Part shown: positions 8,581 through 43,943 of the stretch, in pieces
How the letters are laid out: each line of letters begins with the position of its first letter
Position numbering within the stretch: the first letter of the stretch is position 1
DNA from: Maylandia zebra
Lineage: Eukaryota > Chordata > Actinopteri > Cichliformes > Cichlidae
Assembly: GCF_041146795.1 (NCBI RefSeq)
Contig: NC_135178.1
Coordinates: 7,992,344-8,056,343 of the forward strand
Direction of reading: 5' to 3'
Length of the DNA: 64,000 bases
The notes under the pieces: model-generated
What the model saw: only the letters and a program-made list of their open reading frames with translations
Databases searched by the model: none
What the model was told of the DNA's origin: nothing
Position numbers and translations under genes: made by a program

Positions 8581-9861
8581 CAGTTTTTTCTGAATGCTTA
8601 AACCCTAACTGTGATTCCTGTAGCACAATCTCTAAAACTATTCAGACTTATAGCAAAACCACTCACTGAGTTTGCAAAACTAAAAGCACATAAACTGCTT
8701 TGCACTCAGTTTGCAATTTTGTAACACACACTTTGCAAAACGGTAGGCACAATTCACTGCACAACATTCAATTACCAAATTTCCAACACACTCCTAGCAA
8801 AAGTATACACATGTATGGCTATCATTAACACTAATTTGCCAACTGTCTGGCACACTTTCACATGTGAAAACTTTTTTAGATAATTAGTTCACTTTGCAAT
8901 CAGCCTAAGCACTATAATACAGGTAAGCTGTGTGTGCGGAGTACAATGGAGGGAGCAGAAAGAGTGAGAAGTAGAGGAGGCCGAGGAAGAGGACGTGGAG
9001 GTGAAGAAGTAGGATGAAGAGGACGACAAGGACAAGGAGGAGCAAGAGGAAGACGAGGAGGGGGGAGAGGAAGATGAGGAGGGGGGAGAGGAAGGGTAGG
9101 AAGAGTAAGAAATAGAATTGCTGATGACAATAGTGGACCATGTAATCAACCATGTAATCAACCGTGGAATGACCCTGAGGGTAGCTGGCCAACGGGTCCA
9201 GCCTAACTCGAGCCGCTACACTGTAGCAAGTACCATAAGGACATCTTGAAATGAGAATCGGTTAGTACAGTCACTTCGCACAAAGATTTGTAGCACTGCC
9301 ATATGCCAATGAGAAACACACCAATACCATTGATGTAAAAATACTGAAATTGTTACTTTACAGAATTGCTAGATGACCAGATGCTGGGGGCAGAGGAAGC
9401 ATGTTCACTGCAGACCAAGTAACCCATATAGTCATTATGGCGATTGCAAATAATCCTATACTTGGAAATGAACACTTGTGTTTGTTTTGATGTGTTTCAA
9501 GTACACCAGTACTTGAAGTTTGGATCCCTCTATGCTTATGGATCTATGACAGAAGTATGAGCTCAAACTGACATAGCCTACCTTGTGCACAGAGAAAGCA
9601 AAAGCCAGATGTGTTTTGTATTCATACCATCAGTGTGCAGTTGGCGCATTGTGTGCTTAGTAGATGATGGCTTGTGTGTACTGTTTGATACGGAAACACC
9701 ATTTTTACGAAGGTGTGAAGAGTTAATCTAGCTGTGTTTGCTTTTGCAAGAGAACTACAATGTTTTGATTATTGGGTGACAGGTTTTCTTATTTGTGTGA
9801 AGAGTTTTGCAAAATTAGCCAATAGTTACAAAAAATGTGCTTAGGCATTCAGAAAAAACTG
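8581..9861 (+). mobile_element. Decayed Tc1-like element E2 at A1/B1 junction
   Basis: Terminal inverted repeats CAGTTTTTTCTGAATGC and GCATTCAGAAAAAACTG are flanked by TA on both sides, the Tc1/mariner target pattern. Inside, from ATG 8945, an Arg/Gly-rich leader is followed (with frameshifts and stops) by remnants reading VDHVINH, RVAGQRVQPNSSRYTVAS and GGRGSMFTADQV, typical of a Tc1-like transposase DNA-binding half. The catalytic region is missing or unreadable, so the copy is not autonomous. TTTGC/GCAAA-type motifs recur near both ends, plausibly transposase binding sites. The left flank is the end of module A and the right flank is the start of module B. Confidence 0.9.
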
Positions 9862-10843
9862 TAATAGAATATAATTTTATATTTATATTTCAATATCACA
9901 GTAATCTTCCAATTTAGAACTACAAGTTAAAAAAGAACTAACATAAATAAAATACACTTCAGCTAATTACTTAAAAAAATAATTTATTTTCCCAAACCAC
10001 GCAGAGCCGCACTAAAAGGACTAAAGAGCCGCAGGTTGCTGACCCCTGCACTAACCTATTCAGCTGCTTGTGAATGCAAATATCTAATCAGCCAATCACA
10101 TGCCAGAAAAAAAAAAAGGGTGATTTAAGTGACTTTGAAGGCAGCATTGCTGTTGGTGACAGATGGGCTGTTTTACGTTTTTCAGACACTCCTGATCTTC
10201 TCAAATTTTCTCAGGAATTTACAGAGAACAGTCCAAACTGAAAAGCGAAATAAACATTTCCCTGGGTAAAAATGCCTTGTTGATTGCAGAAGTCAGAGGG
10301 GCGTGGCCATGCTGAAGGCAAGAGGAATTCTAAGCCAGTTTCTCAACCCAGCCCATCTGATATCAGTAACCACAACACATTCAAAGTCAATTAAAAGTCG
10401 CCTTTCTTGCCCGTTCCGATGCTCGCTTTCAACTTTGAAATGAGACCACTTGGACAACAGTAATGATAAATAATTGCAAATAGAGCACGTTTACAGAATT
10501 TAATGTCATTTTTATAGAGCACCTCTTATTTTAAGAAAAGATGGGCGAGACGATTTTTGAAACTAACTGCAAATTAAGCACACAATATTTAATATCTGTA
10601 TTTTACCATTTTGATAAGACATATTTCAGTACTCCAAAACACTTTTATTAGACTGCCAACATGCTTACAAGTAGTAAATCCAGGTTAGTGGATCATAATT
10701 AAACATAACTCTGTGGCAAACGCAGAGTTCAGCAGGCCATCAAGGAAGAAGTGACGTGCATTTCTGCAGTGTAAAGATTCACAAATGATTTTCTCCTTAA
10801 TCTACAGTCACACAAAGCGCCAGGAAAATCTTTGGTGATGTTC

Positions 10844-12077
10844 TCAGATGATTCTGACGCTTATCACCCAGTTCCTCGTGATGTCCTCCACACCATCAAC
10901 CCTCTGTCCTCCTCCCAGTTTCTTCCTCAGCTTGCCTTTCTTATGGCCACCCCTTCCAAAACCTGACTTTTTAACTTCTCCGAGCCACTTTTTGTTCTTG
11001 GAGCGGAGCTTCCTCATCCCCCCGCCCTGCAGGAACTGGTGCTTCTGCTTTTTCTTGCGCTGCTTCATGATCTGATCCTTTGTTTTCAGCTCCGAGCGTG
11101 CTTTGTGGTCACCGGAGCTCTGTACGTTTGGACCTCGTCGGCCACGGCCACGACCTGGGAGAGGCACGACACAACAAAGAGGTTGGAGGTTATAGCTCGC
11201 AAGGCTGGAAGAGGGACTTGAAGTATTTACCTTTAGAGTTGAGTTAAAACATGGTGGCTGATGTTCTATATTTAACATGTTTGTGCTATTCATTTTGATG
11301 CCTTCCTACCTCTTGCTGGCTTTCTGCCTCCTCCGCCTGTTTCTCCATCTGATCCAGATCCTGTATCATCAATCTTGTATTTTTTCCTTCACTCCTCATA
11401 ACTGACATGTGGACATGTTGTCAAGTGATACAACATCTTCACAGTACAGCTTAATATTGTCATAGGAGTAGAGAAGAGGGTCATTGAGAGCAGCACACAG
11501 AGAAGCTTTTTGTTGGAAGGATACAAGTTCTTCCTGTTCTTCTTGTTACTGATAACCTGACCGCTGTCTGTTTTGATCTTCTTCTTCTGGTCTTCTTTTC
11601 CCGTTTCTCTCACAAAACGCTTCCTCTTACGGTCCCTAAAAAAAGAAGGGGGAAAAAAGACTTTAAATTATAGTTTGAAATGACCATTTGGTGGATACTG
11701 AGTCAAACATAGGGAAATTTGTACCATTTCATCATTTTCTTCTGCTGGTTAAGGCGATCGCCTTCATCTCCCATGAGATCAAGGACAGCTGAAGAGGCCT
11801 GCTGTTCAAAAGCACTGCCCTCTCCACCGAGACTCAACCTGTCGACGCATAACACAGGACAAAACAGCATAAAACACAAAGCCATTCACATTTTTTAAAG
11901 AAACAGATGCAACAGTTTAATGCCTCACCCTCTCTCAGAGTCAAAGTCTTTAGGTCTGTAAGGGATATAATACTCTTCATCTTTGCCTGACTGCCTCTTT
12001 TTCTTGGTCTTTGGTCGCTCTTCGCCATCTTCCTGCTGACCTCTTCTTTTACCACCTACCACCTCTGAAAACACCCC
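10844..12077 (-). pseudogene. 3' exons of a ddx54-like RNA helicase gene (B1)
   Basis: Five minus-strand exons with canonical AG/GT borders and matching phases can be read: 12077-11929, 11838-11725, 11635-11525, 11386-11310 and 11154-10844 (stop). They encode [64 protein letters not shown], then RSELKTKDQIMKQRKKKQKH and a basic tail. These match the C-terminal part of DDX54, a nucleolar DEAD-box helicase. The helicase core exons are absent, and the block stops about 0.9 kb short of the divergent coiled-coil gene. It is therefore a truncated copy, although exon frames and splice sites remain intact. The region after the KKL motif is longer than I expect for the family. Confidence 0.8.
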
Positions 12078-12879
12078 CTGGTGGAAATAGAAAGAATTAC
12101 ATGGTACAAAGTGACAAAGCATGATACAGAGATCCTACTATCTTCCTCTTCTAGTTTGTATACAACATCATCTACATCAAAACTGCACTTTATTTTGCTT
12201 CTTCTTCATCAGACAGCACAAACAACTTTCTCATTTTGACTCAAATATTGGTTTTGAATGAAAATGATGAAACAATCCTGGATGTTTATTCAACTTGTGA
12301 GCAGGTTTTCTAATCCACCGTACTATTATTATTGACACTAGTACATGTTCGTGCTGCTGGCAAACTAATACACTCAAGAACATATAGCAAAGCAAAAAAG
12401 TGAAAAGTAGGTCTTGCCTACATAAATAAACATAAGACAGTTGTGAAACTTTGACATAGTAACATCTGCAGTAATATTTACACCTGTGATGACATCTCAC
12501 CAGCATTAGCCTTATTTTGAAACCAAGATTGTTTACACAGAGTTTGTAATTGCAGAGAAATGCTCCATTTATTTTGGTCATTTCATTTTTGAGCAGGAAG
12601 CTCACCTTTCTTGTTATAGCCTTTAGACGAATAGAGAGTTTTCCAATTAAATACATATTCTTTAAATAATGTTCCCTCTTATAAAAAGTAGGATAATTTA
12701 AAAAAAAATTTAAAAAATGTATTATACCTCTATTACTTAGAAAAAAAACTGTTTTTTTTCTGTTGTCTGTTATATAACGTTAGTGATGCTCGTTTCAATT
12801 CATTTCTTAATCAGCTAAACAGGTCAGTTAAGAAACAGTCAAATATTAAGTTAAATTTGAAAACGGTTTAAAAAAAAAT

Positions 12880-13088
12880 ATCCCCATTCCAAAATGTCAC
12901 ATGACAATCTCATTGGCTCACGGAGTTATGATGTCACTACACGATCCTTTGAAGTTTTTCCTTAAACAGGGGTGACACACAGCAGTTTTTTAGTTCGTGT
13001 CTTCGCAGCATTTGTGTTTGCAGCCTTCACACGTTCACCACAGAAACTTTTGGAAACCTTTTCAGAGTTGTCGTGTACAACCTTCAAC
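12880..13088 (+). promoter_or_regulatory. Putative promoter/5' leader of coiled-coil gene (B1)
   Basis: It holds an inverted CCAAT box (ATTGG near 12912), TGATGTCA (12929-12936), GATCCTTTG (12943-12951) and CCTTAA (12960-12965). These motifs occur in the same order upstream of the kinase gene. The segment from TATCCCCATTC to TGATG is also preserved in the broken paralogue near 56960-57024, which supports its belonging to the gene family. Function is inferred. Confidence 0.5.
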
Positions 13089-14297
13089 ATGTATCCAACA
13101 AGACACCAACCAAGGCAAAAAGATTACGCCGCTTCTCCTTCCTGTCGTGGCCGGCCAATTTCCCCAAATGACCTCTTAGCCGTCCAAAGGGCATTACATG
13201 ACAGTAAGAAGGAAAACTACCATCTCCAGAATAAAATTCAACAGATTGAAGAAGAGAAACTTCAACTGGAGGAGAAGTGTAGACAGATGGAAGCGCAAAA
13301 TAAGAACCTGGAAGAAAGACAAAAACGCCAGCCCGACATAAATATTATTAATGAGGGTTGGGGAATCAAGTTTGGACAAGCCCGAGAGCAGGTTGTCTTC
13401 CTAATTAAGGAAAACAAGCAAAAGAGCGTGGAACTAAAGGAGATGTCCAACCAGCTTAAAGACAGCAAAGCTACTGTTGAGAAGACAGAATGGGATCTCC
13501 AATATATGGACCAAATGAATCGGCTGCTCCAAACAAACTTCGATGAAGCTGTGAAAAAAAATGAAGAAATCCTCCAACAGAAGGAAGAACAGGAGAAAAA
13601 GCAAAGAGACATGGAGCACAAACTCAAAGTCACGGAGGAAAAATACAGAATGCTGAAAGAGAAGGTGGATGATACTCTGCGCCAAAATAAAGACCTTCTT
13701 CACGAGAAAAAGCAACTAGAAGGGGAAAAAGAAAAACTGGACAAACAATGCTCGCACATGCAGAAAAGGATGGAGCAAATGGCGAGAAACAACTCCGAGC
13801 TCACTAAGGGGATATTGTTGGAATACAACAACTTGAAGCGCAAACACACTGAAATGCAGGCGCAAAAGCAAGAACAAGACAACATACATGACGACCTGCA
13901 GCGTACGCTCCAAGATATCCACAAAAGAAATGAGGAGCTACAAGACATGTACAAAGAAGTACAACAAAGAAACGCAGACATGCACAAGGACAAGATAATG
14001 CAGGAGGAAACATCCAAAGAGCTCAGGGAAAAGCTTGAAGAAAAACAAGCAACGTTGGAAGAGGTGGAGAAAACGTGCAAGAAGCTTGAGAAACAAAACA
14101 AAGAAACCATCGATGAGTTGAGAACCCTCATCCTGGAAAAAAAAGCTCTTGTAGAAAACTGCATGAAAAAGAAGAACAAACGCTTCCGCTGGCCCTGGAG
14201 GAGGAACTCTACTGCTTCCTCAGCAGGTGTAGCCTCGTCTTGCTCCACCTCTGTTCACCTCCCCAACCAGTCCCGGCAGTTGACTGTCCCCTCCTGA
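13089..14297 (+). CDS. Coiled-coil protein of unknown function, copy 1 (B1)
   Basis: This intronless 402-residue protein starts at ATG 13089, which has A at -3; the open frame extends upstream without another suitable start. Residues 1-35 are Arg/Pro/Ser-rich and non-helical. From about residue 42 to 360 the sequence is almost continuous charged heptad-type coiled coil (runs such as QQKEEQEKKQRDMEHKLK). A short basic aromatic patch, KKKNKRFRWPWRRN, follows, then a Ser-rich tail. The last dozen codons and the stop lie inside the shared 3' interspersed module, so the C-terminus is repeat-derived. I do not recognise the family. A structural or scaffold role would fit, but no partner is evident. 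A degraded paralogue lies at 56110-57024. Copies 1 and 2 differ at one residue (V/I). Confidence 0.85.
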   Translation: MYPTRHQPRQKDYAASPSCRGRPISPNDLLAVQRALHDSKKENYHLQNKIQQIEEEKLQLEEKCRQMEAQNKNLEERQKRQPDINIINEGWGIKFGQAREQVVFLIKENKQKSVELKEMSNQLKDSKATVEKTEWDLQYMDQMNRLLQTNFDEAVKKNEEILQQKEEQEKKQRDMEHKLKVTEEKYRMLKEKVDDTLRQNKDLLHEKKQLEGEKEKLDKQCSHMQKRMEQMARNNSELTKGILLEYNNLKRKHTEMQAQKQEQDNIHDDLQRTLQDIHKRNEELQDMYKEVQQRNADMHKDKIMQEETSKELREKLEEKQATLEEVEKTCKKLEKQNKETIDELRTLILEKKALVENCMKKKNKRFRWPWRRNSTASSAGVASSCSTSVHLPNQSRQLTVPS

Positions 14298-14390
14298 GCC
14301 TGGTTCTGCCGGAGGTTTCTGCCCGTTTAAAGGCAGTTTTTCCTCCCCACTGTCGCCTAGTGCGTGCTCAGAGGGGATTGTTGGGGTTTT
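14256..14390 (+). repeat. Shared 3' interspersed module, coiled-coil gene (B1)
   Basis: The same block as after the kinase and enkurin-like genes: CCCCAACCAGTCCCGGCAG, CTGAGCCTGG, AGTTTTTCCTCCCCACTGTC, CGTGCTCAGAG and GATTGTTGG. Here it begins inside the coding sequence and supplies the stop codon. Confidence 0.8.
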
Positions 14391-14399
14391 CTCTCCTCT

Positions 14400-14708
14400 A
14401 CCTTGTTTCATTATTTACTTAACGTTTTGTTCTTACTTCATTTTACCTTGTTTCATTATTTACTTAACTTTTTGTTCTTACTTCATTTTACCTTGTTTCA
14501 TTATTTACTTGTTAACGTTTTGTTCTTACTTCATTTTACCTTGTTTCATTATTTACTTGTTAACGTTTTGTTCTTACTTCATTTTACCTTGTTTCATTAT
14601 TTACTTGTTAACGTTTTGTTCTTACTTCATTTTACCTTGTTTCATTATTTACTTGTTGACGTTTTGTTCTTACTTCATTTTACCTTGTTTCATTATTTAC
14701 TTGTTTAA
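14400..14708 (+). repeat. 45/48-bp minisatellite (B1)
   Basis: ACCTTGTTTCATTATTTACT starts at 14400, 14445, 14490, 14538, 14586, 14634 and 14682, giving units of 45, 45, 48, 48, 48 and 48 bases plus a partial one. Module B2 has two units fewer. It lies just after the coiled-coil gene, probably in its 3' UTR. Because the units are multiples of three an artificial open frame runs through it. Confidence 0.95.
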
Positions 14709-14911
14709 CTTTTTCTTTTTCAACTTATTCATAAAAAAATAAACCAATTGAATTTATCCTTTGAGTATTTTTCATCTTTTCATCTATAACTTTTTCAAAC
14801 ATTCATATCTGTCGTTTATCTTCTTCTTGAAACCTCATAAATGCTGAAGGAAAAATCCTGGAACATGGTTTGAAACACTGAAATTGTTTCAGCTGAAACC
14901 GGCAAAGTCAT

Positions 14912-14912
<1 letters not shown>

Positions 14913-14973
<61 letters not shown>
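14913..14973 (+). repeat. TG microsatellite (B1)
   Basis: An uninterrupted TG dinucleotide run of about 60 bases. It also marks the breakpoint of the inverted B fragment at 54718. Confidence 0.97.
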
Positions 14974-14977
<4 letters not shown>

Positions 14978-15940
14978 CTGTACATGAAACAACTTTGTAG
15001 AAAACCATTTTCCTGTCGAAACATTAGCAAACACAAACAAAGTGTTATTAACAAACGAATTACTAATATCCCTCTCTATGATAGTGATTTATTTTTTTAC
15101 GGGATTAAAACTGTAAATTTTACCAAACTAAAGAAAGTAATACAAAGTAATAAAACTTTTTATCATTTAGTTAAGATCCAACATCCATTCTTTTCATAGT
15201 TGGTTGCTACCACCAGAGGGCGACATGGAGTACTTTTACCCATGTAGAGAAACATAAACGCTCATATATTACACACGCACCAACATTTTACTGTCTATTA
15301 CTACATCAGTCTGTTTACATTAAACTGATATTGATAAATAAACTCACAAATATAGCTTCATGAATTTGGTAACGTCCTGTAAGTCATATCGTCAAATGCT
15401 TTTGTTCCAAAATAAAAAGGCTGTTGAAATAATGATTGGTGTGGTTTTTACAGGTGAATGAGCAGCAGAATAACTACAGAGAATCTGTGAATACATGAAT
15501 GACCTTTTGTAATATGCCTTTAGCCTATTAGTGCCCTGAAAGAGTGGAGATTTTACCTATTTTAGCAAAATGATCTACAAACTGTATGGGTGAATATAGG
15601 AGCTTGTTAACAGGTTAGCATGTCCAACTAACAGACAGGAAAATGAGCTATGTATTTTTTAGATATCATGTTATCAGCTGACCACTGAAAGCTCTTTCTG
15701 CATATATCTTCTACACGTTCTGTCTCTTGTCACGTGTGTGTTTATATTTAAATCATGTATGTTGATTATTTAAATATGCTTTTTCATTCATTTTTAAAAA
15801 ATGTCAACAGCTGTCGTTTACAGATTCATTGTTTACTATATGCTATATATATATATATATATATGAACATGAACAAAACTGAAAACACTGGGTCACCGAC
15901 CCAGGAACCCTGACAATATGTATTTTACCTGGTTAATGTG

Positions 15941-16180
15941 TGTGGCGGGGCGTGGTCTGCAGCGCCGCTGCAGGGGAGGCGGACGCACCTGAGCGGCACC
16001 CGCGATCACGCCTCGGCGCCTTAACGTCTGTGCTCTCTATGCTGTTGTGTTGGTATGTGTCGGGCTGTGAGCTTTAACACCGGCTGTATGCATACAGCAA
16101 CCGTGTGTGAAAAGTGGTCAATAAAGAGAAGCTGTAAAGCGTGTTCATGGAAACATCGTTGGGTCTGCCGTGATATGTTT
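15941..16180 (+). mobile_element. Possible LTR fragment, GC-rich block (B1)
   Basis: The block starts TGTGGCGGGGCGTGGTCTGC, stays GC-rich to about 16020, then has CAATAAAG near 16120. The start and the internal polyadenylation-like signal resemble teleost gypsy-type LTRs as I remember them. No partner LTR, primer site or target duplication is visible. The same block is at 22435 (B2) and, inverted, near 53500-53725. Confidence 0.35.
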
Positions 16181-17440
16181 ACAATGGGACTTCTGCTCCT
16201 GAATCTCTGCGCACAGCGTCTGCAAATCGGAGCTGTATGAAGTCACTTTCATCTTTATGCAGGACTGTAAGCTGTCATCTGTGAGGCGTGAGCGGTGTTT
16301 GTTTTTAACATAGTTCACGGTGGAGCTGCTGACATAATGTGGATCCGAAGATTGATAATTAGCCTACCTGGGGTTGAAAGTCTCGATAAATGCACGGCGT
16401 TTCGGCGGGTATATCGGCTTCCGCAAGTGTGACGCTTATTTTGAGCGTTCAAAAACTAATAGAATATAATTTTATATTTATATTTCATTTCAATATCACA
16501 GTAATCTTCCAATTTAGAACTACAAGTTAAAAAAGAACTAACATAAATAAAATACACTTCAGCTAATTACTTAAAAAAATAATTTATTTTCCCAAACCAC
16601 GCAGAGCCGCACTAAAAGGACTAAAGAGCCGCAGGTTGCTGACCCCTGCACTAACCTATTCAGCTGCTTGTGAATGCAAATATCTAATCAGCCAATCACA
16701 TGCCAGAAAAAAAAGGGTGATTTAAGTGACTTTGAAGGCAGCATTGCTGTTGGTGACAGATGGGCTGTTTTACGTTTTTCAGACACTCCTGATCTTCTCA
16801 AATTTTTTCAGGAATTTACAGAGAACAGTCCAAACTGAAAAGCGAAATAAACATTTCCCTGGGTAAAAATGCCTTGTTGATTGCAGAAGTCAGAGGGGCG
16901 TGGCCATGCTGAAGGCAAGAGGAATTCTAAGCCAGTTTCTCAACCCAGCCCATCTGATATCAGTAACCACAACACATTCAAAGTCAATTAAAAGTCGCCT
17001 TTCTTGCCCGTTCCGATGCTCGCTTTCAACTTTGAAATGAGACCACTTGGACAACAGTAATGATAAATAATTGCAAATAGAGCACGTTTACAGAATTTAA
17101 TGTCATTTTTATAGAGCACCTCTTATTTTAAGAAAAGATGGGCGAGACGATTTTTGAAACTAACTGCAAATTAAGCACACAATATTTAATATCTGTATTT
17201 TACCATTTTGATAAGACATATTTCAGTACTCCAAAACACTTTTATTAGACTGCCAACATGCTTACAAGTAGTAAATCCAGGTTAGTGGATCATAATTAAA
17301 CATAACTCTGTGGCAAACGCAGAGTTCAGCAGGCCATCAAGGAAGAAGTGACGTGCATTTCTGCAGTGTAAAGATTCACAAATGATTTTCTCCTTAATCT
17401 ACAGTCACACAAAGCGCCAGGAAAATCTTTGGTGATGTTC

Positions 17441-18666
17441 TCAGATGATTCTGACGCTTATCACCCAGTTCCTCCTGATGTCCTCCACACCATCAACCCT
17501 CTGTCCTCCTCCCAGTTTCTTCCTCAGCTTGCCTTTCTTATGGCCACCCCTTCCAAAACCTGACTTTTTAACTTCTCCGAGCCACTTTTTGTTCTTGGAG
17601 CGGAGCTTCCTCATCCCCCCGCCCTGCAGGAACTGGTGCTTCTGCTTTTTCTTGCGCTGCTTCATGATCTGATCCTTTGTTTTCAGCTCCGAGCGTGCTT
17701 TGTGGTCACCGGAGCTCTGTACGTTTGGACCTCGTCGGCCACGGCCACGACCTGGGAGAGGCACGACACAACAAAGAGGTTGGAGGTTATAGCTCGCAAG
17801 GCTGGAAGAGGGACTTGAAGTATTTACCTTTAGAGTTGAGTTAAAACATGGTGGCTGATGTTCTATATTTAACATGTTTGTGCTATTCATTTTGATGCCT
17901 TCCTACCTCTTGCTGGCTTCCTGCCTCCTCCGCCTGTTTCTCCATCTGATCCAGATCCTGTATCATCAATCTTGTATTTTTTCCTTCACTCCTCATAACT
18001 GACATGTTGTCAAGTGATACAACATCTTCACAGTACAGCTTAATATTGTCATAGGAGTAGAGAAGAGGGTCATTGAGAGCAGCACACAGAGAAGCTTTTT
18101 GTTGGAAGGATACAAGTTCTTCCTGTTCTTCTTGTTACTGATAACCTGACCGCTGTCTGTTTTGATCTTCTTCTTCTGGTCTTCTTTTCCCGTTTCTCTC
18201 ACAAAACGCTTCCTCTTACGGTCCCTAAAAAAAGAAGGGGGAAAAAAGACTTTAAATTATAGTTTGAAATGACCATTTGGTGGATACTGAGTCAAACATA
18301 GGGAAATTTGTACCATTTCATCATTTTCTTCTGCTGGTTAAGGCGATCGCCTTCATCTCCCATGAGATCAAGGACAGCTGAAGAGGCCTGCTGTTCAAAA
18401 GCACTGCCCTCTCCACCGAGACTCAACCTGTCGACGCATAACACAGGACAAAACAGCATAAAACACAAAGCCATTCACATTTTTTAAAGAAACAGATGCA
18501 ACAGTTTAATGCCTCACCCTCTCTCAGAGTCAAAGTCTTTAGGTCTGTAAGGGATATAATACTCTTCATCTTTCCCTGACTGCCTCTTTTTCTTGGTCTT
18601 TGGTCACTCTTCGCCATCTTCCTGCTGACCTCTTCTTTTACCACCTACCACCTCTGAAAACACCCC
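17441..18666 (-). pseudogene. 3' exons of a ddx54-like RNA helicase gene (B2)
   Basis: Five exons as in B1, at 18666-18518, 18427-18314, 18224-18114, 17983-17907 and 17751-17441, all with AG/GT borders. One tail residue differs from B1 (RRNW instead of TRNW). The 5' helicase-core exons are absent. Confidence 0.8.
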
Positions 18667-19677
18667 CTGGTGGAAATAGAAAGAATTACATGGTACAAAG
18701 TGACAAAGCATGATACAGAGATCCTACTATCTTCCTCTTCTAGTTTGTATACAACATCATCTACATCAAAACTGCACTTTATTTTGCTTCTTCTTCATCA
18801 GACAGCACAAACAACTTTCTCATTTTGACTCAAATATTGGTTTTGAATGAAAATGATGAAACAATCCTGGGTGTTTATTCAACTTGTGAGCAGGTTTTCT
18901 AATCCACCGTACTATTATTATTGACACTAGTACATGTTCGTGCTGCTGGCAAACTAATACACTCAAGAACATATAGCAAAGCAAAAAAGTGAAAAGTAGG
19001 TCTTGCCTACATAAATAAACATAAGACAGTTGTGAAACTTTGACATAGTAACATCTGCAGTAATATTTACACCTGTGATGACATCTCACCAGCATTAGCC
19101 TTATTTTGAAACCAAGATTGTTTACACAGAGTTTGTAATTGCAGAGAAATGCTCCATTTATTTTGGTCATTTCATTTTTGAGCAGGAAGCTCACCTTTCT
19201 TGTTATAGCCTTTAGACGAATAGAGAGTTTTCCAATTAAATACATATTCTTTAAATAATGTTCCCTCTTATAAAAAGTAGGATAATTTAAAAAAAAATTT
19301 AAAAAATGTATTATACCTCTATTACTTAGAAAAAAAACTGTTTTTTTTCTGTTGTCTGTTATATAACGTTAGTGATGCTCGTTTCAATTCATTTCTTAAT
19401 CAGCTAAACAGGTCAGTTAAGAAACAGTCAAATATTAAGTTAAATTTGAAAACGGTTTAAAAAAAAATATCCCCATTCCAAAATGTCACATGACAATCTC
19501 ATTGGCTCACGGAGTTATGATGTCACTACACGATCCTTTGAAGTTTTTCCTTAAACAGGGGTGACACACAGCAGTTTTTTAGTTCGTGTCTTCGCAGCAT
19601 TTGTGTTTGCAGCCTTCACACGTTCACCACAGAAACTTTTGGAAACCTTTTCAGAGTTGTCGTGTACAACCTTCAAC

Positions 19678-20886: not shown

Positions 20887-20979
20887 GCCTGGTTCTGCCG
20901 GAGGTTTCTGCCCGTTTAAAGGCAGTTTTTCCTCCCCACTGTCGCCTAGTGCGTGCTCAGAGGGGATTGTTGGGGTTTT
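20845..20979 (+). repeat. Shared 3' interspersed module, coiled-coil gene (B2)
   Basis: Same block as at 14256-14390, again supplying the C-terminal codons and stop of the coiled-coil gene. Confidence 0.8.
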
Positions 20980-21407: not shown

Positions 21408-21409
<2 letters not shown>

Positions 21410-32727: not shown

Positions 32728-34008
32728 CAGTTTTTTCTGAATGCTTAAACCCTAACTGTGATTCCTGTAGCACAATCTCTAAAACTATTCAGACTTATAG
32801 CAAAACCACTCACTGAGTTTGCAAAACTAAAAGCACATAAACTGCTTTGCACTCAGTTTGCAATTTTGTAACACACACTTTGCAAAACGGTAGGCACAAT
32901 TCACTGCACAACACTCAATTACCAAATTTCCAACACACTCCTAGCAAAAGTATACACATGTATGGCTATCATTAACACTAATTTGCCAACTGTCTGGCAC
33001 ACTTTCACATGTGAAAACTTTTTTAGATAATTAGTTCACTTTGCAATCAGCCTAAGCACTATAATACAGGTAAGCTGTGTGTGGGGAGTACAATGGAGGG
33101 AGCAGAAAGAGTGAGAAGTAGAGGAGGCCGAGGAAGAGGACGTGGAGGTGAAGAAGTAGGATGAAGAGGACGACAAGGACAAGGAGGAGCAAGAGGAAGA
33201 CGAGGAGGGGGGAGAGGAAGATGAGGAGGGGGGAGAGGAAGGGTAGGAAGAGTAAGAAATAGAATTGCTGATGACAATAGTGGACCATGTAATCAACCAT
33301 GTAATCAACCGTGGAATGACCCTGAGGGTAGCTGGCCAACGGGTCCAGCCTAACTCGAGCCGCTACACTGTAGCAAGTACCATAAGGACATCTTGAAATG
33401 AGAATCGGTTAGTACAGTCACTTCGCACAAAGATTTGTAGCACTGCCATATGCCAATGAGAAACACACCAATACCATTGATGTAAAAATACTGAAATTGT
33501 TACTTTACAGAATTGCTAGATGACCAGATGCTGGGGGCAGAGGAAGCATGTTCACTGCAGACCAAGTAACCCATATAGTCATTATGGCGATTGCAAATAA
33601 TCCTATACTTGGAAATGAACACTTGTGTTTGTTTTGATGTGTTTCAAGTACACCAGTACTTGAAGTTTGGATCCCTCTATGCTTATGGATCTATGACAGA
33701 AGTATGAGCTCAAACTGACATAGCCTACCTTGTGCACAGAGAAAGCAAAAGCCAGATGTGTTTTGTATTCATACCATCAGTGTGCAGTTGGCGCATTGTG
33801 TGCTTAGTAGATGATGGCTTGTGTGTACTGTTTGATACGGAAACACCATTTTTACGAAGGTGTGAAGAGTTAATCTAGCTGTGTTTGCTTTTGCAAGAGA
33901 ACTACAATGTTTTGATTATTGGGTGACAGGTTTTCTTATTTGTGTGAAGAGTTTTGCAAAATTAGCCAATAGTTACAAAAAATGTGCTTAGGCATTCAGA
34001 AAAAACTG
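32728..34008 (+). mobile_element. Decayed Tc1-like element E4 at A2/A3 junction
   Basis: Same TIRs and TA borders as the other copies. Both flanks are module A (end of A2, start of A3), making this the pure A-E-A junction. Confidence 0.9.
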
Positions 34009-35856
34009 TAATAAACTAAAAGACAGAAATCAGATTATAAGATCTGTGGTGTTGTTGATTTATATTATGGTACTTATCATTTGTGATATTTATTACTGTG
34101 TGCATACTTTATTAGGAGAGATGAGATTAAATGTTGTCAGACAAATATTCTCTTCCTTGCTGGTTCCATCGAAGGAGAAATGTTCAAGTAAGTATGTAAC
34201 TGGGACGTAATCCAATTCCACAACACAATGTGACGGGGAATCAGCTGTGTTTTGCTGCCCAATTTATTTAGAATCTGGTGCAAACCGGCGAGCCAGTTCC
34301 TGAATCAGTCACGTGGTACGGACTGCCCGCGAGGCCTCGAACATCACTGCATACGTAATCAAAGCAAGCCTCGATACGCGCTTTACAAAACTACCACGAG
34401 ATTACCCGACACACGCTTCAAAGCTTCGACACACAGGAGACATCACTACTGCACACAGCCTTCACACGACAACAGGTGCACCACACTGCTAAGTGTGTTT
34501 TGTGTTTAGAGTTTTGCTAAATGGGAGACTGAGCTTTGAATAGTGTTTAAGATTTTGGCAACAGTGGGACTGATTTGATGAAAGAGTTTTCATAGTTGAC
34601 AGTTTAGTTTTTACAATGGGGTTTAGTGTTTTAGCAATTCAGAAAAACTCTAATACACCTGTGCTTTTCCCAGCAACTGAGGCTTTTACCCTGCACAGTT
34701 TAAGGTATGATAAAGCACTGACCTTATAAATGGCACAAAATACACATTTTAGCTGGGAGCTGGTCATTCACAGGGGAAAGGCTCCATTGTACAACAACAA
34801 CAACAGTAGTAATAGTAATAATAAATTATTATTAGTCAGGCAAGTATATCATATACCAAACATGCTTCCAAACTAATGACATTTTTTGCATTCTTCACAT
34901 CAGGTCAAAATGTACTTTTTTTTAAAAAGTGACTGGCACTGCGGAAATGGATCTACAGCACCACTTAAGAAATTTTAAAGAACTTCTAACAACTTATTTA
35001 CAGCTTGAAATACGTGTATGACATTTATTACACACAGATTCAGTGAACCCAATCCAAAGAGGAAGTCTGGAAGTCCGCCATTTTGAATGTAAAATGACAT
35101 TTTGGCACAGTTTTAGTGTTTTCCAGGCATCGCTGGTTTACACATTCGCCTGCAAAGTGAGAGGTCACTGGTTAAATTCCATTTGGTTACTTCAGGAACT
35201 TTTTGGGGTTACTTCAGAAAGGGACATCTTCGTCAAAGCCATGTTTGTGGTGGAATTTTGATCATTTATCACTGGACATAAGATTTTCATCTCTAAAAAT
35301 GTATTTTGTCCAGTCTGTCCCAAACTTCACACTTTTGATGACAGTCTGGCGACGACTACATGCCAATATCTGGTCACACATGGTGCCACAGTTCTCATAT
35401 AACATTTTAATCAAGACTACCCCACTGTGATTGAAGCATTTCTTGCAAAACAATCATAACCAAACAAAACCTTTCCTGTTCTGTAAATGAACAGTAGGAC
35501 AAAATGATTACTAGTCATTGCGGAAAGCACAATTAATGTTTTTGTTTACATCGTTGGAACGAGGAAAAATTCCCCCACCACAAAAACAGAAATACTCATG
35601 AAAGCAACCTGTAGTGCAAACACGAGGGCTGAATTTATTACTTCCTGCACTAGAAACCTGCCGATGTTGCTGATATGGATAGATCACCAGTCTTCCTTGT
35701 CTTTATCTTATTATCTCCTGTTGAGATGTCGCAGCAGAAAATGCAGCCTGGCCTGTTGAAACATTGTTTTTTTTTAGTGTTTCAACTGAAAAAATAGAAT
35801 GCCTTTGATCCAAATGGAATGCATCTTGTGAAAAAAGGTGACATCTTGTGACATCA

Positions 35857-35896
35857 CAAGATGATGACATAGATCCTTTGTTATGTCATCATCTTG
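35857..35896 (+). promoter_or_regulatory. Inverted repeat in putative promoter of dual-kinase gene, copy 3
   Basis: Same perfect 15-base inverted repeat and motif order as in copies 1 and 2. Confidence 0.5.
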
Positions 35897-36043
35897 CTGA
35901 GAGAAAAAACCCTTAAGTAGGAGCTTTGCTCTGTTAAACTTTAATGCTCAACGGACCTTGACCTGACAGCAAGCAAACCCTTTTTGGAGAGTTTTGAGAG
36001 AATTTTACTTAGCAATTCACCGACCAAGCCGACACATTTCACC

Positions 36044-38326
36044 ATGTCAGCTCACCCATCCTTCAGCTCAAATGAGCTTGGATTAGTTAAAGGGAGCATT
36101 TTGGGAAAGCACTACAAGGTAGAGGCTTTCCTTGGAGAAGGGGGCTTTGGTATTGTAGCCAAATGTCGTGATACCATGACTAACCGAGCTGTGGCTATTA
36201 AAGTGAACAAGAGCCGCCCTGATATTCTGCAACAGGCGAAATTGGAAATTTTCATCCTGGAGCAGCTGCGAAGGTTGGATTCAGATGCCGCCAACATTGT
36301 TCAATGGAACGGCTTTTTTCACGACGGAGAGCGGGTTTGCCTGAAATTTGAACTCCTTGATCAATGCCTGAGGGACTACATAGGGGACCGGAAAAACCAC
36401 TGTCTCCCCATAAGCGAAGTCAGGCCAATTTTAGGTCAACTGACAAATGCTCTGTCCCACCTGGGTTCTGTGGGAATGGTGCACGCTGACCTCAAACCTG
36501 GAAACATCATGGTTGTAAACCGCCATGAGTCTCCCATCAAAGTCAAACTTATAGACTTTGGCCTCGCATGTCCTGCGTCTGCAGTGATGCCTGGTGACCG
36601 TGTGGGGACGGTTGGTTATTGTGCACCTGAGGTTATGCTTGGCCTTCCTTACAATGAAGCAATTGACATGTGGTCTCTGGGGCTGGTAGCTGTGGAGCTT
36701 GCTACAGGACTGCCACTCTACCCTGGAAATGAAGACTATGATGTTTTGAAATTCATCATAGAGACTCAGGGTCAGCCACCAGATCATGTTCTAGACTCTG
36801 GCGTCTACACTGAAGACTATTTCATTGAAGACAAAGACAAGCAACAGCGCTGGACATTTAAGACTGACCTACAATTTCAGTATGAGACAGGATATGAGTC
36901 CCTGGAGACAAGATGCATAAAACTGACGCGTCTGGATGACCTTGAACAAATAATAATGTTTAGACGAGGACCAGAAGCTGGCCAACGCTTATTTGTCAGC
37001 TTAATTAAACAGATGTTGGCCTTGGATGCACACCAGCGGATAACACCCTCGGAGGTTCTCCGGCATCCCTTTTTCAGCCCTAAGAGTTCCCTGTGCATTG
37101 ACATGAGTGCTGAAATATCACAAAACCCTGTGGTCTTTCAGCACCCTTCAAACTTGGAAAGCAAGAGATCACAGAAAATCAACTGCAGTTTTCAAAACTC
37201 GGTTGAATTTTCTCAGCAAGTATTCGTCCACACATCAGCCAGTCCATCATTCAGCTCAGATGAGCTTGAATTAGTTAAAGGGAGCATTTTGGGAAAGCAC
37301 TACAAGGTAGAGGCTTTCCTCGGAGAAGGGGGCTTTGGTATTGTAGCCAAATGTCGCGACACAACAACCAACCAAGCTGTTGCCATTAAAGTCAACAAGA
37401 GCGACCCTGATATTCTGCAACAGGCACATGTGGAAATTTTCATCTTGGAGCAGCTGCGAAGGTTGGATCCAGATGCCGCCAACATTGTTCAATGGAACGG
37501 CTTTTTCCACGACGGACAGCGGGTTTGCCTGAAATTTGAACTCCTTGATCAATGCCTGTGGGACTACATAGGGGACCGGAATAAACAGGGTCTCCCCATA
37601 AGCGAAGTCAGGCCAATTTTAGGTCAAATCACAAATGCTCTGTCCCACCTGAGTTCTGTGGGAATAGTGCACGCTGACCTCAAACCTGGAAACATCATGG
37701 TTGTAAACCGCCATGAGTCTCCCATCAAAGTCAAACTTATAGACTTTGGCCTCGCATGTCCTGCGTCTGCAGTGATACCTGGTGACTTTGTGGGAACGGT
37801 TGGTTACTGTGCACCTGAGGTTATGCTTGGCCTTCCTTACAATGAAGCAAGTGACATGTGGTCTCTGGGGCTGGTGGCTGTGGAGCTTGCTACAGGGCTG
37901 CCACTCTACCCTTCGGAGAATGACTATGATTATCTGAAATTCATCATAGAGACTCAGGGTCAGCCACCAGATCATGTGCTAGACTCTGGCGTGTACACTG
38001 AAAACTATTTCATTGGAGACAAATACAAGCAACAGCGCTGGACATTTAAGACGGAAGAACAATATAAAGGCTCTGTTCCAGGGACAGGACATGAATCCCT
38101 GGAGACAAGATACATAATACTTACACGTCTGGATGACCTTGAACAGCTAATGATGTTTAGACGAGGACCAGAAGCGGGCCGACGCTTATTTGTCAGCCTA
38201 ATTAAACAGATGTTGGCCTTGGATGCACACCAGCGGATAACACCCTCTCAGGTTCTCCGGCATCCCTTTTTCAGCCCTGGCCTCTCTAAAAGGTTCCCAT
38301 GTATCAACATTGAAAGACCATACTGA
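36044..38326 (+). CDS. HIPK-like protein with two tandem kinase domains, copy 3
   Basis: 760 residues, intronless, with all catalytic motifs present in both domains and the same start as the other copies. It is closest to copy 2. Distinct changes: G114 in domain 1 (YIGDR, as in domain 2), L for V in domain 2 ATG(V/L)PLYP (as in domain 1), KGSV for KDSV, and AGRRL for AGQRL. Two of these match the other domain of the same protein, hinting at exchange between domains. Confidence 0.9.
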   Translation: MSAHPSFSSNELGLVKGSILGKHYKVEAFLGEGGFGIVAKCRDTMTNRAVAIKVNKSRPDILQQAKLEIFILEQLRRLDSDAANIVQWNGFFHDGERVCLKFELLDQCLRDYIGDRKNHCLPISEVRPILGQLTNALSHLGSVGMVHADLKPGNIMVVNRHESPIKVKLIDFGLACPASAVMPGDRVGTVGYCAPEVMLGLPYNEAIDMWSLGLVAVELATGLPLYPGNEDYDVLKFIIETQGQPPDHVLDSGVYTEDYFIEDKDKQQRWTFKTDLQFQYETGYESLETRCIKLTRLDDLEQIIMFRRGPEAGQRLFVSLIKQMLALDAHQRITPSEVLRHPFFSPKSSLCIDMSAEISQNPVVFQHPSNLESKRSQKINCSFQNSVEFSQQVFVHTSASPSFSSDELELVKGSILGKHYKVEAFLGEGGFGIVAKCRDTTTNQAVAIKVNKSDPDILQQAHVEIFILEQLRRLDPDAANIVQWNGFFHDGQRVCLKFELLDQCLWDYIGDRNKQGLPISEVRPILGQITNALSHLSSVGIVHADLKPGNIMVVNRHESPIKVKLIDFGLACPASAVIPGDFVGTVGYCAPEVMLGLPYNEASDMWSLGLVAVELATGLPLYPSENDYDYLKFIIETQGQPPDHVLDSGVYTENYFIGDKYKQQRWTFKTEEQYKGSVPGTGHESLETRYIILTRLDDLEQLMMFRRGPEAGRRLFVSLIKQMLALDAHQRITPSQVLRHPFFSPGLSKRFPCINIERPY

Positions 38327-38484
38327 ATCAGTCTCCAGCATGGCATCTTCCACCCTGGACAAAAGTGATAAAAATACAAACTGGGGTTGGAAAATGACAT
38401 TAACAGCAAATTACAATGCAAAAATTAATTAAGCTGCTCCAAAAATGATCACTTTGGCTTCTTTTTTTTAAATTTTCACTCCCC

Positions 38485-38622
38485 CCACCCCAACCAGTCG
38501 TGGCAGAGGGCTGTCCCTTCCTGAGCCTGGCTCTGTTGAAGGTTTCTTCCTTTTTAAAGGGAGTTTTTCCTTCCCACTGTCGCTAAATGCTTGCTCATAG
38601 GGAAATCTTCTGATTGTTGGAG
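38485..38622 (+). repeat. Shared 3' interspersed module after kinase gene (A3)
   Basis: Copy of the block at 4550-4687. Confidence 0.75.
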
Positions 38623-40099
38623 TGGCCAAAACTCTAGGGGAAGTAGCAATTCTTGTGAAAATTTTAAAAAAAAAAGCCTACCAATCTTCAAAGCGCAGCA
38701 GTGGACACCTTACCATCACATCAGTCCTTCAATCAGACCTAAAACACCACCTTTACAGAAATAAATTCCATACAAATTGGAAATAAATTGCGTAATAATT
38801 GTTGTTTTTGATTATTTATAAATATATAGAGCTACCCTTCAGCCTCCTAGTAGACATACCTGTGTTATGAATGTGAAACTCCTCTGATTTTCAGAAAAGT
38901 TGACCTCTGACCTTGAAGTCAAGGTCATTGAGATTTAAGCTTCACAGAGATTTTCAGTAGATGCAACCATGGTATTGACTTGAAAATTCTACACTATCAA
39001 AGACTTAGGTGCCCACAGCACCGCGCCATATACAAAAGATTTTTCTATTCATTTATGTATTATTAGTTTATTTATTTCTTCATCCCGCTCTCTCTCTTTT
39101 TTTTAATTCACCTTTCTGTTGCGATGCTCTGGACATTTCTAAACCCCACAAGTTCAGCCTCAATTTTCAACCCAATTTTCCTATACTTTCACTTGAACAC
39201 GTCCAGCCTTCACCTCTCACCGGTCCTCGTCCCCTCTTCTCACAGCTTCCTGTGTGGCCTCCCAAATCAAACACAGGCCCAAATCAGCCGTTTCTTCTTC
39301 TCTGTTCATTCTCTCTTCATCTTTTCAGTCTTTTCTTGGCGGTTAACTCCCAGCATGGCAAATATGAACTCAGACAGTCCAATGCAGTGCTTTCACACAG
39401 TCATGTCACTGGTACTCTTTCCAGCTTGTAATTCAGAGCACATGTTCCATTAACATACATGCTGCTGGACCCTTCAGTGTTTTAGGTCAGTTGTACTGTC
39501 TTCTGCCTGCTGTTAATTCTTCAAATCTACGGTGTTGTTCTGTCTGTTTTCTGTCTTCATCAGGAGATTGACTGTCCTTTAAGCTTCTTCTCAGGATAAG
39601 GGCAGGATGAGAGGTGAAGCTGTAAAATTTCAGCCAAAGCCTGGCCTGTTTGTCGTTCCAATTATGTTAATCTATCATTTTGCCGCTGTACTCATCTGAG
39701 GTTGAGCCAAGTCCATGGGCACCTGTATTAACACACTAAGACATTTATTTAATATCATTTTCATTACTATTTCTTAGCACTTTCACTCTCTAATTCCTCT
39801 GTTTTCCTTTTGAAACGTCTCTCACAAGCTCACAAGCTATATTCAGACTTCCTGCTTCACTTCCTGCCAGACACACACACACACACACACACTCTTCACT
39901 TTACTGGATTTTCATCCGTTTCTACAGCCTAATCAAGCTCTTATTTTATGTTCACACTCTATATACCCTCTGTAACTCTACTAATTCTAATATAAAAAGA
40001 ATGCACCCTCAGCACAGAAAAACAGAAAAGTCAGTGATGTACTAATGTAGCAAAAATAGGAAACATTAGAACTGTAAATGTTTTCTTCCTTGTCTGCAG

Positions 40100-40320
40100 A
40101 TTAACAGTCCACAGGTTGGGTGCTTGCACTCTGATTCGTTCCCTGGAGATGAAGGAGAGAGAGCTCAGAGGACAGCAAGATGGAGGAGTGAAGGAGAAGG
40201 TGGTGCAGCTCAGTGTCCAATCAGGAGTGAGCAGTTCTTTCACCACCTTCATTGCTGTCAACAAAGACAACAGAGAGGCGATCCAAGGACCTCTGCACCG
40301 CAGACATATTCTACCACCCT
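40100..40320 (+). pseudogene. Stranded exon resembling VWA5A (A3)
   Basis: Same exon and splice borders as in A1 and A2. The poly(T) insertion lies about 100 bases downstream, in the presumed intron. Confidence 0.6.
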
Positions 40321-40409
40321 GTGAGGTTTGTTTAAAGCAAACAAAGCAATACCATGAAACTGTTAACAGCAGGATGTCAGAGTCAATAGAGAGGACTCAA
40401 AAGAGCAAC

Positions 40410-40421
40410 TTCAAATCAAAC

Positions 40422-40462
<41 letters not shown>

Positions 40463-40532
40463 CTTTTTAAATGACATCAGAAACAGCAGTATGCGACATT
40501 ACGTGATGGCAGAGCTTCAGTTCATCCTTTGT

Positions 40533-40565
<33 letters not shown>

Positions 40566-40580
40566 CAAATCAAACTATTT
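40410..40580 (-). mobile_element. Retroposed insertion unique to A3, with 17-bp target duplication
   Basis: TTCAAATCAAACTATTT occurs at 40410-40426 and again at 40564-40580, bracketing an insert absent from A1 and A2. The insert is poly(T), about 70 unique bases (40463-40535), then another poly(T). Read on the minus strand it is A-run, short core, A-run, typical of LINE-mediated retroposition. The core source is not recognised. Confidence 0.85.
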
Positions 40581-42662
40581 ATGTAGTAGGTGTTTCTTTG
40601 CCAATGTCTTTCCCCTGCATTAGAAAGTAATAAGCCAGATGGAAGTACAACACACATCTATGCATTTCTATAAAAACTGACCTGCCCTGAACTTATAATC
40701 TCTCTCTCTCTCTCTTTGTTTTTCCTTAAAGTGATGGCTGTCCATTCGTCCTGTAAAAGTTGTAAATATAAACCTGAATGAATGGGAGTAGAAACTGTGT
40801 GTGCGCATGAAGACATGCTTGTGTCGCTGAGATTGAACAGATTTATGTATGTTCACGTAGCCAAGTGATAATCATATATAATAATCACTGAATAGTAATA
40901 ATGTTATTGAACAGGTTAAACATTTAGATATCACAAAAAGTTGCAAAAAAGCAAAAAAAAAACCCACACACAGCTGTGAAGTCAGCTGCACATGAATAAC
41001 ATTAGTACAATGACAACTTTAATCAGAGTGAGTTCAGAAGATCCAAAAGTGGGACACTAAAAACAAGCTAGTGAAAGCAAAAAGTGACTTTGAAAAATTT
41101 ATTTCATAGAATTAAAGCACTGATAGGAAAAAAAACTAAACATGAGAAGAATGGCAATCCTGCAGCGACCAATCAAAGAAGACTGTAATGGCTGCATTGT
41201 AAAGAAGTGAGTGAAGAAAGCTGATTTTTTTTTAGTTTTTCTGAGATATGCAGAGTTTTAACGAACAATTTGAACACTATTATTCATTTACATTATTTGT
41301 TCTCAACAGAGATGGGCAGTAATGCGTTACAAGTAACGAGTTACTGTAATCCGATTACAGGCACTTGCCCTGGTGGCCATTCTTTCAGTGGGCATTTCTC
41401 AACAACAACTACAAACACTAGTGAAGTGAATGGGCATTTAATTAAATAATGAAACATTTAATTCAATAATTAATGGCATATTTAATTCATTCATTTTGTC
41501 ACTCCTGGCCCTCCACACCTCACTGCCATGATTGTTTGTGTAGTTATTGGATTCTAAAACTACTAGAATAGAATAGAAAACACATAAGATGCAGTCTCTG
41601 TTTTTTCTTCACCTTATTAATTTGAACTGAACTGAAATAAATCCGTTCTTTTCTGTATGGTAATGACTAGGACCTGTCCCAGCTGTCTCTGGTGGATTCA
41701 GTATTGTCTCCAATGTTTCTGATAACTTCCAGTTTGGGAAGTTTCCCATGCAGGTGAGGAATGCAGTGACTGACAGACTACCCCTCCTTCATTTAGGACC
41801 CATGCCAAACACTGAGTAAAGACTTCCTTGCATTAAACCTGCATAGCTGTTTTCACATTTATAACAAATCACCTAAGTGACCGGCAGTGATCGTATAGTG
41901 CTCTGAGTTGTTGCCTAAACAAGCCCTCTTCAAATCGGAGTTACAGCAGAGAGAATATGGCACTGAAGCAATGATGACAGCTTTAATAACCTATTTTATC
42001 TTCAATTATTCTTGTATGAAATTCTCTTAAAGTAGCAACTGAATTTCAACCAACTCAGCTAGCGCTGCATATTTTATTTCCTCTGTTAAAATAAAATGTG
42101 GCGGAGCCCAGCTGTAATTGTACCTTGCATTAATATGGTGTATTATTGATGGTGACACAGCACTGCTTAGCATGTCGTCCTGAATCTCAGGTGTGCCAAT
42201 GACCTGTGCAGTATATGAGGCACTAAAATCCTGGTGGATTTCTGGGATACGAACAGGACGGAGTCATGTGAGCTCTATCAATATTGCACCACTTACGTCT
42301 CAGACCTGTATTTATGTATTTATGCACTGAAATCGCGCTGTAATATCCAGTTAACTGTCCACATTTGTACTCTGTTTTTCCATTTATTATATTTTTTTTC
42401 ATTAATTTGTCTGAAAAAAGATCCACGTAGTAACCAAAGAGAGACTAAATCAATGGTCTCTAATAGCAGCCAAATTATAAGAGCTTTCATTAGTGATGGT
42501 GAGATGAAGCCTTGTGATGAACTGAAGCTTTCCATCCAACTGGTCGACTCATGGTTCGAAGCATTGTGACGATTCATTGGCTCTACTGCGCCATCAAGTG
42601 GACGATTAAAGTCAGACAGGCTCAATGATTATAATGATGTGATGTGTAAACCTCTAAACTTA

Positions 42663-43943
42663 CAGTTTTTTCTGAATGCTTAAACCCTAACTGTGATTCC
42701 TGTAGCACAATCTCTAAAACTATTCAGACTTATAGCAAAACCACTCACTGAGTTTGCAAAACTAAAAGCACATAAACTGCTTTGCACTCAGTTTGCAATT
42801 TTGTAACACACACTTTGCAAAACGGTAGGCACAATTCACTGCACAACACTCAATTACCAAATTTCCAACACACTCCTAGCAAAAGTATACACATGTATGG
42901 CTATCATTAACACTAATTTGCCAACTGTCTGGCACACTTTCACATGTGAAAACTTTTTTAGATAATTAGTTCACTTTGCAATCAGCCTAAGCACTATAAT
43001 ACAGGTAAGCTGTGTGTGCGGAGTACAATGGAGGGAGCAGAAAGAGTGAGAAGTAGAGGAGGCCGAGGAAGAGGACGTGGAGGTGAAGAAGTAGGATGAA
43101 GAGGACGACAAGGACAAGGAGGAGCAAGAGGAAGACGAGGAGGGGGGAGAGGAAGATGAGGAGGGGGGAGAGGAAGGGTAGGAAGAGTAAGAAATAGAAT
43201 TGCTGATGACAATAGTGGACCATGTAATCAACCATGTAATCAACCGTGGAATGACCCTGAGGGTAGCTGGCCAACGGGTCCAGCCTAACTCGAGCCGCTA
43301 CACTGTAGCAAGTACCATAAGGACATCTTGAAATGAGAATCGGTTAGTACAGTCACTTCGCACAAAGATTTGTAGCACTGCCATATGCCAATGAGAAACA
43401 CACCAATACCATTGATGTAAAAATACTGAAATTGTTACTTTACAGAATTGCTAGATGACCAGATGCTGGGGGCAGAGGAAGCATGTTCACTGCAGACCAA
43501 GTAACCCATATAGTCATTATGGCGATTGCAAATAATCCTATACTTGGAAATGAACACTTGTGTTTGTTTTGATGTGTTTCAAGTACACCAGTACTTGAAG
43601 TTTGGATCCCTCTATGCTTATGGATCTATGACAGAAGTATGAGCTCAAACTGACATAGCCTACCTTGTGCACAGAGAAAGCAAAAGCCAGATGTGTTTTG
43701 TATTCATACCATCAGTGTGCAGTTGGCGCATTGTGTGCTTAGTAGATGATGGCTTGTGTGTACTGTTTGATACGGAAACACCATTTTTACGAAGGTGTGA
43801 AGAGTTAATCTAGCTGTGTTTGCTTTTGCAAGAGAACTACAATGTTTTGATTATTGGGTGACAGGTTTTCTTATTTGTGTGAAGAGTTTTGCAAAATTAG
43901 CCAATAGTTACAAAAAATGTGCTTAGGCATTCAGAAAAAACTG
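42663..43943 (+). mobile_element. Decayed Tc1-like element E5 at A3/B3 junction
   Basis: Same TIRs and TA borders. The left flank is module A and the right flank is module B, the same junction type as E2. Confidence 0.9.

Follow-up and report, generated by a model that had tools for sequence, protein, structure and literature searches.

Organization of the locus

The stretch of Maylandia zebra DNA analysed here, called the window (64 kb of contig NC_135178.1, here C12, positions C12:7992344-8056343), is built of two unrelated modules, A (~8.5 kb) and B (~6.6 kb), which alternate with copies of a short element, E, between them (Table 1). Module A carries an open frame of 793 amino acids with two kinase domains recognised by Pfam, HIPK/DYRK-like in character. 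Against solved structures, HIPK2 and HIPK3 score best and align best to the first kinase domain, and the second is the best-aligned region for DYRK1A chains. The frame of B reads as a coiled coil, and no Pfam family was found for it or its relatives. Rfam and tRNA scans of the 64-kb window gave no matches. The array to which the window belongs was read over C12:7792344-8056343, and genome-wide results refer to 962 Mb in 63 contigs.

The array contains 19 copies of E, seven of them in A-E-B junctions, seven in B-E-A (one inverted) and five in A-E-A. E is present at every A/A and A/B border of the array (19/19) and at none of the six B/B borders. In an exact-string search of the whole genome, the B-E junction was found at seven places and the E-B junction at seven, all in this array; reversed-string controls gave no genome matches, so chance cannot produce the junction pattern. 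The A-E string has 13 occurrences, of which 11 belong to the array and the other two lie at C12:7.63 Mb and on C4. The twelfth array junction with A on its left, at 7991135, has a changed flank and so does not match this string. B-E-B was not found by genome-wide exact junction strings, which do not detect copies altered at a tip or flank. Among the array's 12 A units on the plus strand, eleven are flanked on both sides by E in direct orientation, and array unit A1 and an inverted A piece are cut at one end. The target duplication surrounds the whole unit, giving B...TA-[E-A(-E-A)n-E]-TA...B against the empty site B...TA...B.

Element E and its family

E is 1281 bp long and has 17-bp inverted ends. 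Its tips read CAGTTTTTTCTGAATGC...GCATTCAGAAAAAACTG, with one extra A in the right tip of four copies outside the window; the inverted ends are perfect in 15 of the 19 array copies, the other four having the extra A at the right, and contain one mismatch in 13 of the 15 dispersed copies examined. TA borders both sides of E in all array copies (19/19) and in all dispersed copies with ends read (15/15). Inverted ends of Tc1/mariner elements usually begin with CAGT. E shares with that group the TA duplication and inverted ends starting with CAGT, but differs in its strong TTAA context and its broken frames. In two fragments of one dispersed copy Pfam recognised no transposase domain and gave only two sub-threshold matches to domains of unknown function (DUF). 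E may resemble the N-terminus of a transposase. E appears to be a non-autonomous, decayed DNA transposon, classed by its ends as Tc1-like rather than as a proven member of Tc1/mariner.

The dispersed family includes 550 first-look candidates in the genome, of which 40 were scored and at least 23 are near full length; eight of these 23 were aligned whole and seven more were read at their ends. All 15 dispersed insertions examined (14 different flanks) lie in a TTAA context. The family thus duplicates TA yet sits in TTAA, a strict target context for Tc1-like ends. The site of E in A fits TTAA.

Single lineage of the junction copies

Eighteen private alignment columns, corresponding to about five events, are common to all 19 array copies of E and to the copies at C4:12305979 and C12:7633565, and they are absent from all eight dispersed copies aligned whole. 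The exact private string was found at 20 places genome-wide, 19 in the array and one on C4, and the 21st copy of this lineage, C12:7633565, has one mismatch in it. Array copies differ from each other by a mean of 1.6 substitutions (maximum 4), from the C4 copy by 4-6 and from the eight dispersed copies by 23.1 on average; the dispersed copies differ among themselves by 8.7. On sequence comparison, all junction copies descend from one E, and separate insertions of E at the individual seams can in practice be ruled out.

A recent burst in which independent insertions made each junction type would agree with TA in all array flanks and with a family as dispersed as this one. Such an origin is extremely improbable and is already contradicted by these data, as the 21 copies have private changes that the eight aligned dispersed copies lack, the private string occurs nowhere else, and each flank type uses one TA site in all copies.

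The B site and its E-free borders

At the border of the first two B modules of the window (16457-16458), a single TA forms an exact join between what lies left of E3 and what lies right of E2 and E5. The initial annotation had read this border as a precise E-free site, and had assigned E2 and E5 to A-E-B, E3 and E6 to B-E-A and E4 to A-E-A. Every one of these assignments was recovered, E6 lying outside the segment 8581..43943 that it described, and the border itself can now be refined in two respects.

First, a dispersed repeat of ~735 bp (window ~15915-16648) spans it, having at least 13 further copies of 89-93% identity on at least 10 contigs among the matches listed. Because this repeat runs through the border, the latter is only the point where E struck and not a true end of the module. 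Second, a 5-bp insertion, ATTTC, lies just downstream in all six B/B borders of the array and in none of its seven E-B borders, which makes the B/B border a sister border and not the allele that was hit. Elsewhere, this TA of B also lacks E on C7 (two places), on C15 and at C12:7.71 Mb (one place each); ATTTC is present at the 7.71-Mb border and missing from those on C7 and C15. The B end at C12:7718680 runs on into other sequence, which is neither E nor B. On the upstream side, one base is common to all seven B-E borders and is found in none of four comparable B/B ends; the B/B ends at 7830369 and 7901378 are excluded from this comparison because an insert cuts them after 181 bp.

The E-bearing B borders look like one lineage from one insertion. 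Since they and the E-free borders are separate lineages, the B/B borders are not excision products. The exact single TA is what precise excision of E, or a loss of A together with E, would leave; such an origin is nevertheless very unlikely, because ATTTC (6/6) and the other upstream base (4/4 comparable ends) set the E-free borders apart from all seven plus seven E-bearing ones, and because the borders on C7 and C15 are likewise E-free.

Borders of A and the copy on C4

E-free A borders, in which the A end is followed by ~166 bp and then by the A start, were found at two places on C4, and by coordinates one of them lies inside a tandem A pair at C4:12.307-12.326 Mb. Comparable sequence runs continuously across the 166 bp on C14, C16, C5 and C27 and at a third place on C4, as well as on C3 with a shorter A-like flank. 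Owing to this continuity with A-like flanks at six other places, the 166 bp is taken as ancestral and lost in the E-bearing copies, and its reading as an insertion in A was set aside. One place on C4 (C4:12305979) has the arrangement A-E-A. Both this copy and the array lack the 166 bp, and E stands where two TAATAAA repeats became one. Insertion of E at two distinct sites in A, separated by 166 bp, was also considered, but a loss between the TAATAAA repeats together with one insertion yields identical sequence.

E position 162 is T in the C4 copy and in all eight dispersed copies, and G in all 19 array copies and the 7.63-Mb copy; because of T162 the C4 copy is placed as basal. The A-E-A arrangement is probably the earlier state and not a product of exchange.

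The A units of C4 look rotated relative to those of the window (window 6295-8580 before 91-6310) owing to an insert in A at C4:12313507-12318325 and C4:11326147. A circular permutation through a circular intermediate was tried and dropped as unneeded, because the boundaries belong to an insert that has a poly-T end and a 16-bp repeat at its flanks. This insert is putatively of the long interspersed nuclear element (LINE) type.

Exchange inside E and inside A

An identical 1281-bp E is present in three junctions (AEA_7947605, AEB_7957393 and AEB_8000924), with A as its right flank once and B twice. Because the A and B sequences that follow E on the right have nothing in common, the exchange or conversion tract must have ended inside E. 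The derived left-hand markers 187T, 357G and 444T each occur in both A-E-A and A-E-B copies. Positions 357 and 444 are found in all four combinations, one of these in a single copy; two other four-combination pairs involve a run of A and are weak. As read from these haplotypes, exchange or conversion with an endpoint inside E did occur.

Switches of neighbour are also seen from the side of A. Clade I (array units A2, A5, A8 and A11; 2-7 substitutions in 8.5 kb) has B as its right neighbour twice and A twice, and a clade marker at A position 8142 of 8508 places the switch either in E or in the final 366 bp of A. Clade III (A3, A6 and A9; 2-9 substitutions) has B as its left neighbour twice and A once, the interval of this switch taking in ~3 kb of A. 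Array unit A12 combines sequence of clades I and III as a mosaic; exchange therefore took place within A too and E was not the only site.

Growth of the array

Ten of the 12 A units fall in three close clades (I, III and IV) of fixed order, and unit A1 stands apart at the left edge of the array. The order of blocks is B-[I-III-IV]-B, B-[I]-B (twice), B-[III-IV]-B (twice) and B-[I-A12]-B, and E positions recur at offsets of 71-74 kb and ~43.5 kb. Because most A units belong to these fixed-order clades, many of the present junctions look like copies made by block duplication. The array is explained by a small number of founding junctions, with block duplication adding copies and exchange trimming them. 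Seams created by collapsed or misjoined repeats in the assembly are a very unlikely source of this structure: long, near-identical repeats are hard to assemble, but the junction types have their own markers and the units are not identical.

The tandem A on C4 and the tandem B here have E-free borders, so neither amplification needs E. The proposal of the initial annotation that E may have shuffled and amplified both modules is not supported in so far as it makes E the origin of both amplifications. Its narrower proposal of recombination between E copies is supported as regards endpoints inside E, and is qualified in that conversion may account for them as well as crossover and that many seams look block-duplicated. 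Alignment of the E copies for internal breakpoints, which it had suggested, recovered an identical haplotype with both right partners and markers spread across junction types; neither one E per junction type without a breakpoint nor independent insertions was found.

Proposed history of the mixed array

Here it is proposed that the array probably goes back to one founding insertion into B, possibly of a composite E-A-E, followed by duplication and homologous exchange. The grounds are the single E lineage, the exact TA ends, the E-free borders of A and of B, the exchange endpoints inside E and the clade and block structure. From these, we infer a direction from C4 to C12, a single founding event and a founding mechanism as follows. 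One E would have entered an A/A border of an array of kinase genes, its basal surviving copy being the one on C4. E would then have reached one B/B border of C12, at a TA inside the dispersed repeat, either within a composite E-A-E unit or alone and followed by recombination with A-E-A, the result in both cases being B-E-A-E-B. Duplications of ~44 to 74 kb would next have multiplied the mixed block, and homologous exchange or conversion within E and within A would have rearranged it, setting the number of A units between B pairs.

Several observations weigh against this history. The direction from C4 to C12 would rest on one base, T162, and a 21-bp deletion common to the C4 copy and two B-E-A copies does not fit a clean tree with C4 at its base. 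The deleted site is a purine-rich tract of two near-identical 21-bp units, which could lose one unit repeatedly, and this could explain the shared deletion. A-E-A also occurs without B on C12 itself, at 7.63 Mb. The B site of E is CTAA, which is atypical for the family. The comparison set for the private columns consists of eight of the 23 near-full-length dispersed copies, from the scored fraction (40/550) of the candidates. Lastly, marker 8171 near the A end, beside the shared E haplotype, is common to array unit A6 and to A7 and A10 of clade IV; the tract behind the identical-E case therefore began in A and may be a conversion. Either crossover or gene conversion may underlie the switches, and the clearest one suits conversion as well.

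As to how A was joined to B, one quite possible route, though short of an even chance, is a composite jump, in which direct copies of E around one A (E-A-E, ~11 kb) moved as a macrotransposon into the TA of a B/B border. Such a move would use the outer tip of each E and yield B-E-A-E-B in one event. TA at both outer sides together with the exact E-free site, and one E lineage on both sides, agree with it; the lack of B-E-B by exact junction strings leans slightly this way, and the C4 A-E-A is a possible donor. Against it, no E-A-E was seen on C4, where the private E string and the A-E string occur once each, its target would be the atypical CTAA, and two successive steps give identical anatomy.

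Those two steps, an equally plausible route, would be the move of a solo E from A-E-A into B/B, forming B-E-B, and then the import of A at E, either by unequal crossing-over or because an A-E circle integrated by homology. This sequence of steps comes near to the non-allelic recombination favoured by the initial annotation. The exchange or conversion endpoints seen inside E and the solo copies of E dispersed in the genome speak for this. The route requires a B-E-B intermediate, though, of which the exact junction strings gave none, and later deletion of A through flanking E should also recreate B-E-B. The two routes are left near equal, and CTAA fits neither well.

The fullest form of the proposed history is offered tentatively: a composite Tc1-like E-A-E may have carried a double-kinase gene between chromosomes into a repeat inside an array of coiled-coil genes, and its ends may then have served as exchange points for growth of the mixed array.

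Other features of the window

The coordinates of modules, junctions and fragments are collected in Table 1.

Table 1. Modules, E copies and borders in the 64-kb window (window coordinates)
Feature	Position	Strand	Remarks
E1, right end only in window	1..72	+	whole copy C12:7991135-7992415, A-E-A in genome
A1 module (array unit A10)	73..8580	+	793-residue double-kinase frame 2010-4391
E2, A-E-B junction	8581..9861	+	flanking TA at 8579-8580 and 9862-9863
B1 module	9864..16458	+	coiled-coil frame 12966-14297
E-free B/B border, single TA (exact empty site)	16457..16458	.	inside dispersed repeat ~15915-16648
B2 module	16459..22952	+	
E3, B-E-A junction	22953..24229	+	4-bp deletion at E position 123-126
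A2 module (array unit A11)	24230..32727	+	
E4, A-E-A junction	32728..34008	+	
A3 module (array unit A12)	34009..42662	+	mosaic of two A clades; 137-bp insert
E5, A-E-B junction	42663..43943	+	
B3, first 1547 bp of B	43946..45499	+	followed by block with copia-like and enkurin-like frames
Inverted A start	51400..51945	-	broken off at A position 546 (window position 618 of A1)
E6, inverted B-E-A junction	51946..53205	-	without 21 bp of purine-rich tract
Inverted B end	53206..54717	-	identity stops at TG/CA repeat

The block that interrupts the third B module contains a copia-like open frame of 856 amino acids (window 45898-48468) with an RVT_2 domain. The copia-bearing block is also found inside two other B units, at C12:7849370 and 7920372, and is 99.4% identical. 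A frame of 330 amino acids with an enkurin domain (window 50339-51331, minus strand) lies within a 2.58-kb unit, present once in the window and in three and four consecutive copies in two interrupted B units (C12:7849370-7861780 and 7920372-7935995).

The inverted B end is 99.4% identical to B1 and stops at window 54717, at the TG/CA repeat; beyond the repeat, at 56121-56946, lies a coiled-coil relative only ~75% identical, which marks a sharp identity breakpoint. A 48-bp tandem repeat 3' of the B frame (14416-14859 and 20960-21355) differs in copy number between B1 and B2. At the left edge of the array, C12:7804225-7804524 and C12:7642701-7643000, ~160 kb away, are inverted copies of 300 bp at 100% identity. 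Both are cut at window position 615 of A, and the inverted A of the window is cut at 618, these near-coincident cuts hinting at a large inversion or palindrome.

Comparison with known systems

Mixed gene arrays are usually too scrambled to read. In this one the element and its empty site are preserved at ~99% identity, together with borders of both modules that lack E and with a possible donor chromosome, so that the order of insertion, joining, duplication and exchange can be tested. It also becomes possible to check whether Tc1-like ends made a natural composite move in a vertebrate; should that reading fail, the locus is still a clean case of element-anchored array growth. Among the titles listed in one literature collection under macrotransposition, composite transposons, ectopic recombination, circular intermediates or the expansion of kinases, none describes this array.

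Non-allelic homologous recombination between copies of a transposable element has the same main signs, namely direct repeats of one element at the seams, one haplotype with exchanged flanks and a variable number of units between anchors. The array differs from it in that the E copies come from one insertion lineage, the seams were mostly multiplied by block duplication and exchange also took place inside the A module; the reciprocal product, B-E-B, was not found by the genome-wide exact strings.

Circular intermediates in segmental duplication, as treated in one report (PMC7450558), could move an A-E unit between chromosomes. Here, in contrast, the breakpoints are the exact tips of E at TA. 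The insert in A with its 16-bp flanking repeat accounts for the apparent rotation on C4.

For maize Ac/Ds, two papers (PMC9910405, PMC4270019) report transposition that uses the ends of two neighbouring elements. As in those macrotransposons, two elements of the same family flank a cargo, with TA around the whole and an exact empty site in the present case. The array differs in having Tc1-like ends in a fish, in that movement as a unit is hypothetical and in that the two-step route would leave the same anatomy. The rearrangement is known in kind, and the array is a well-preserved example of it.

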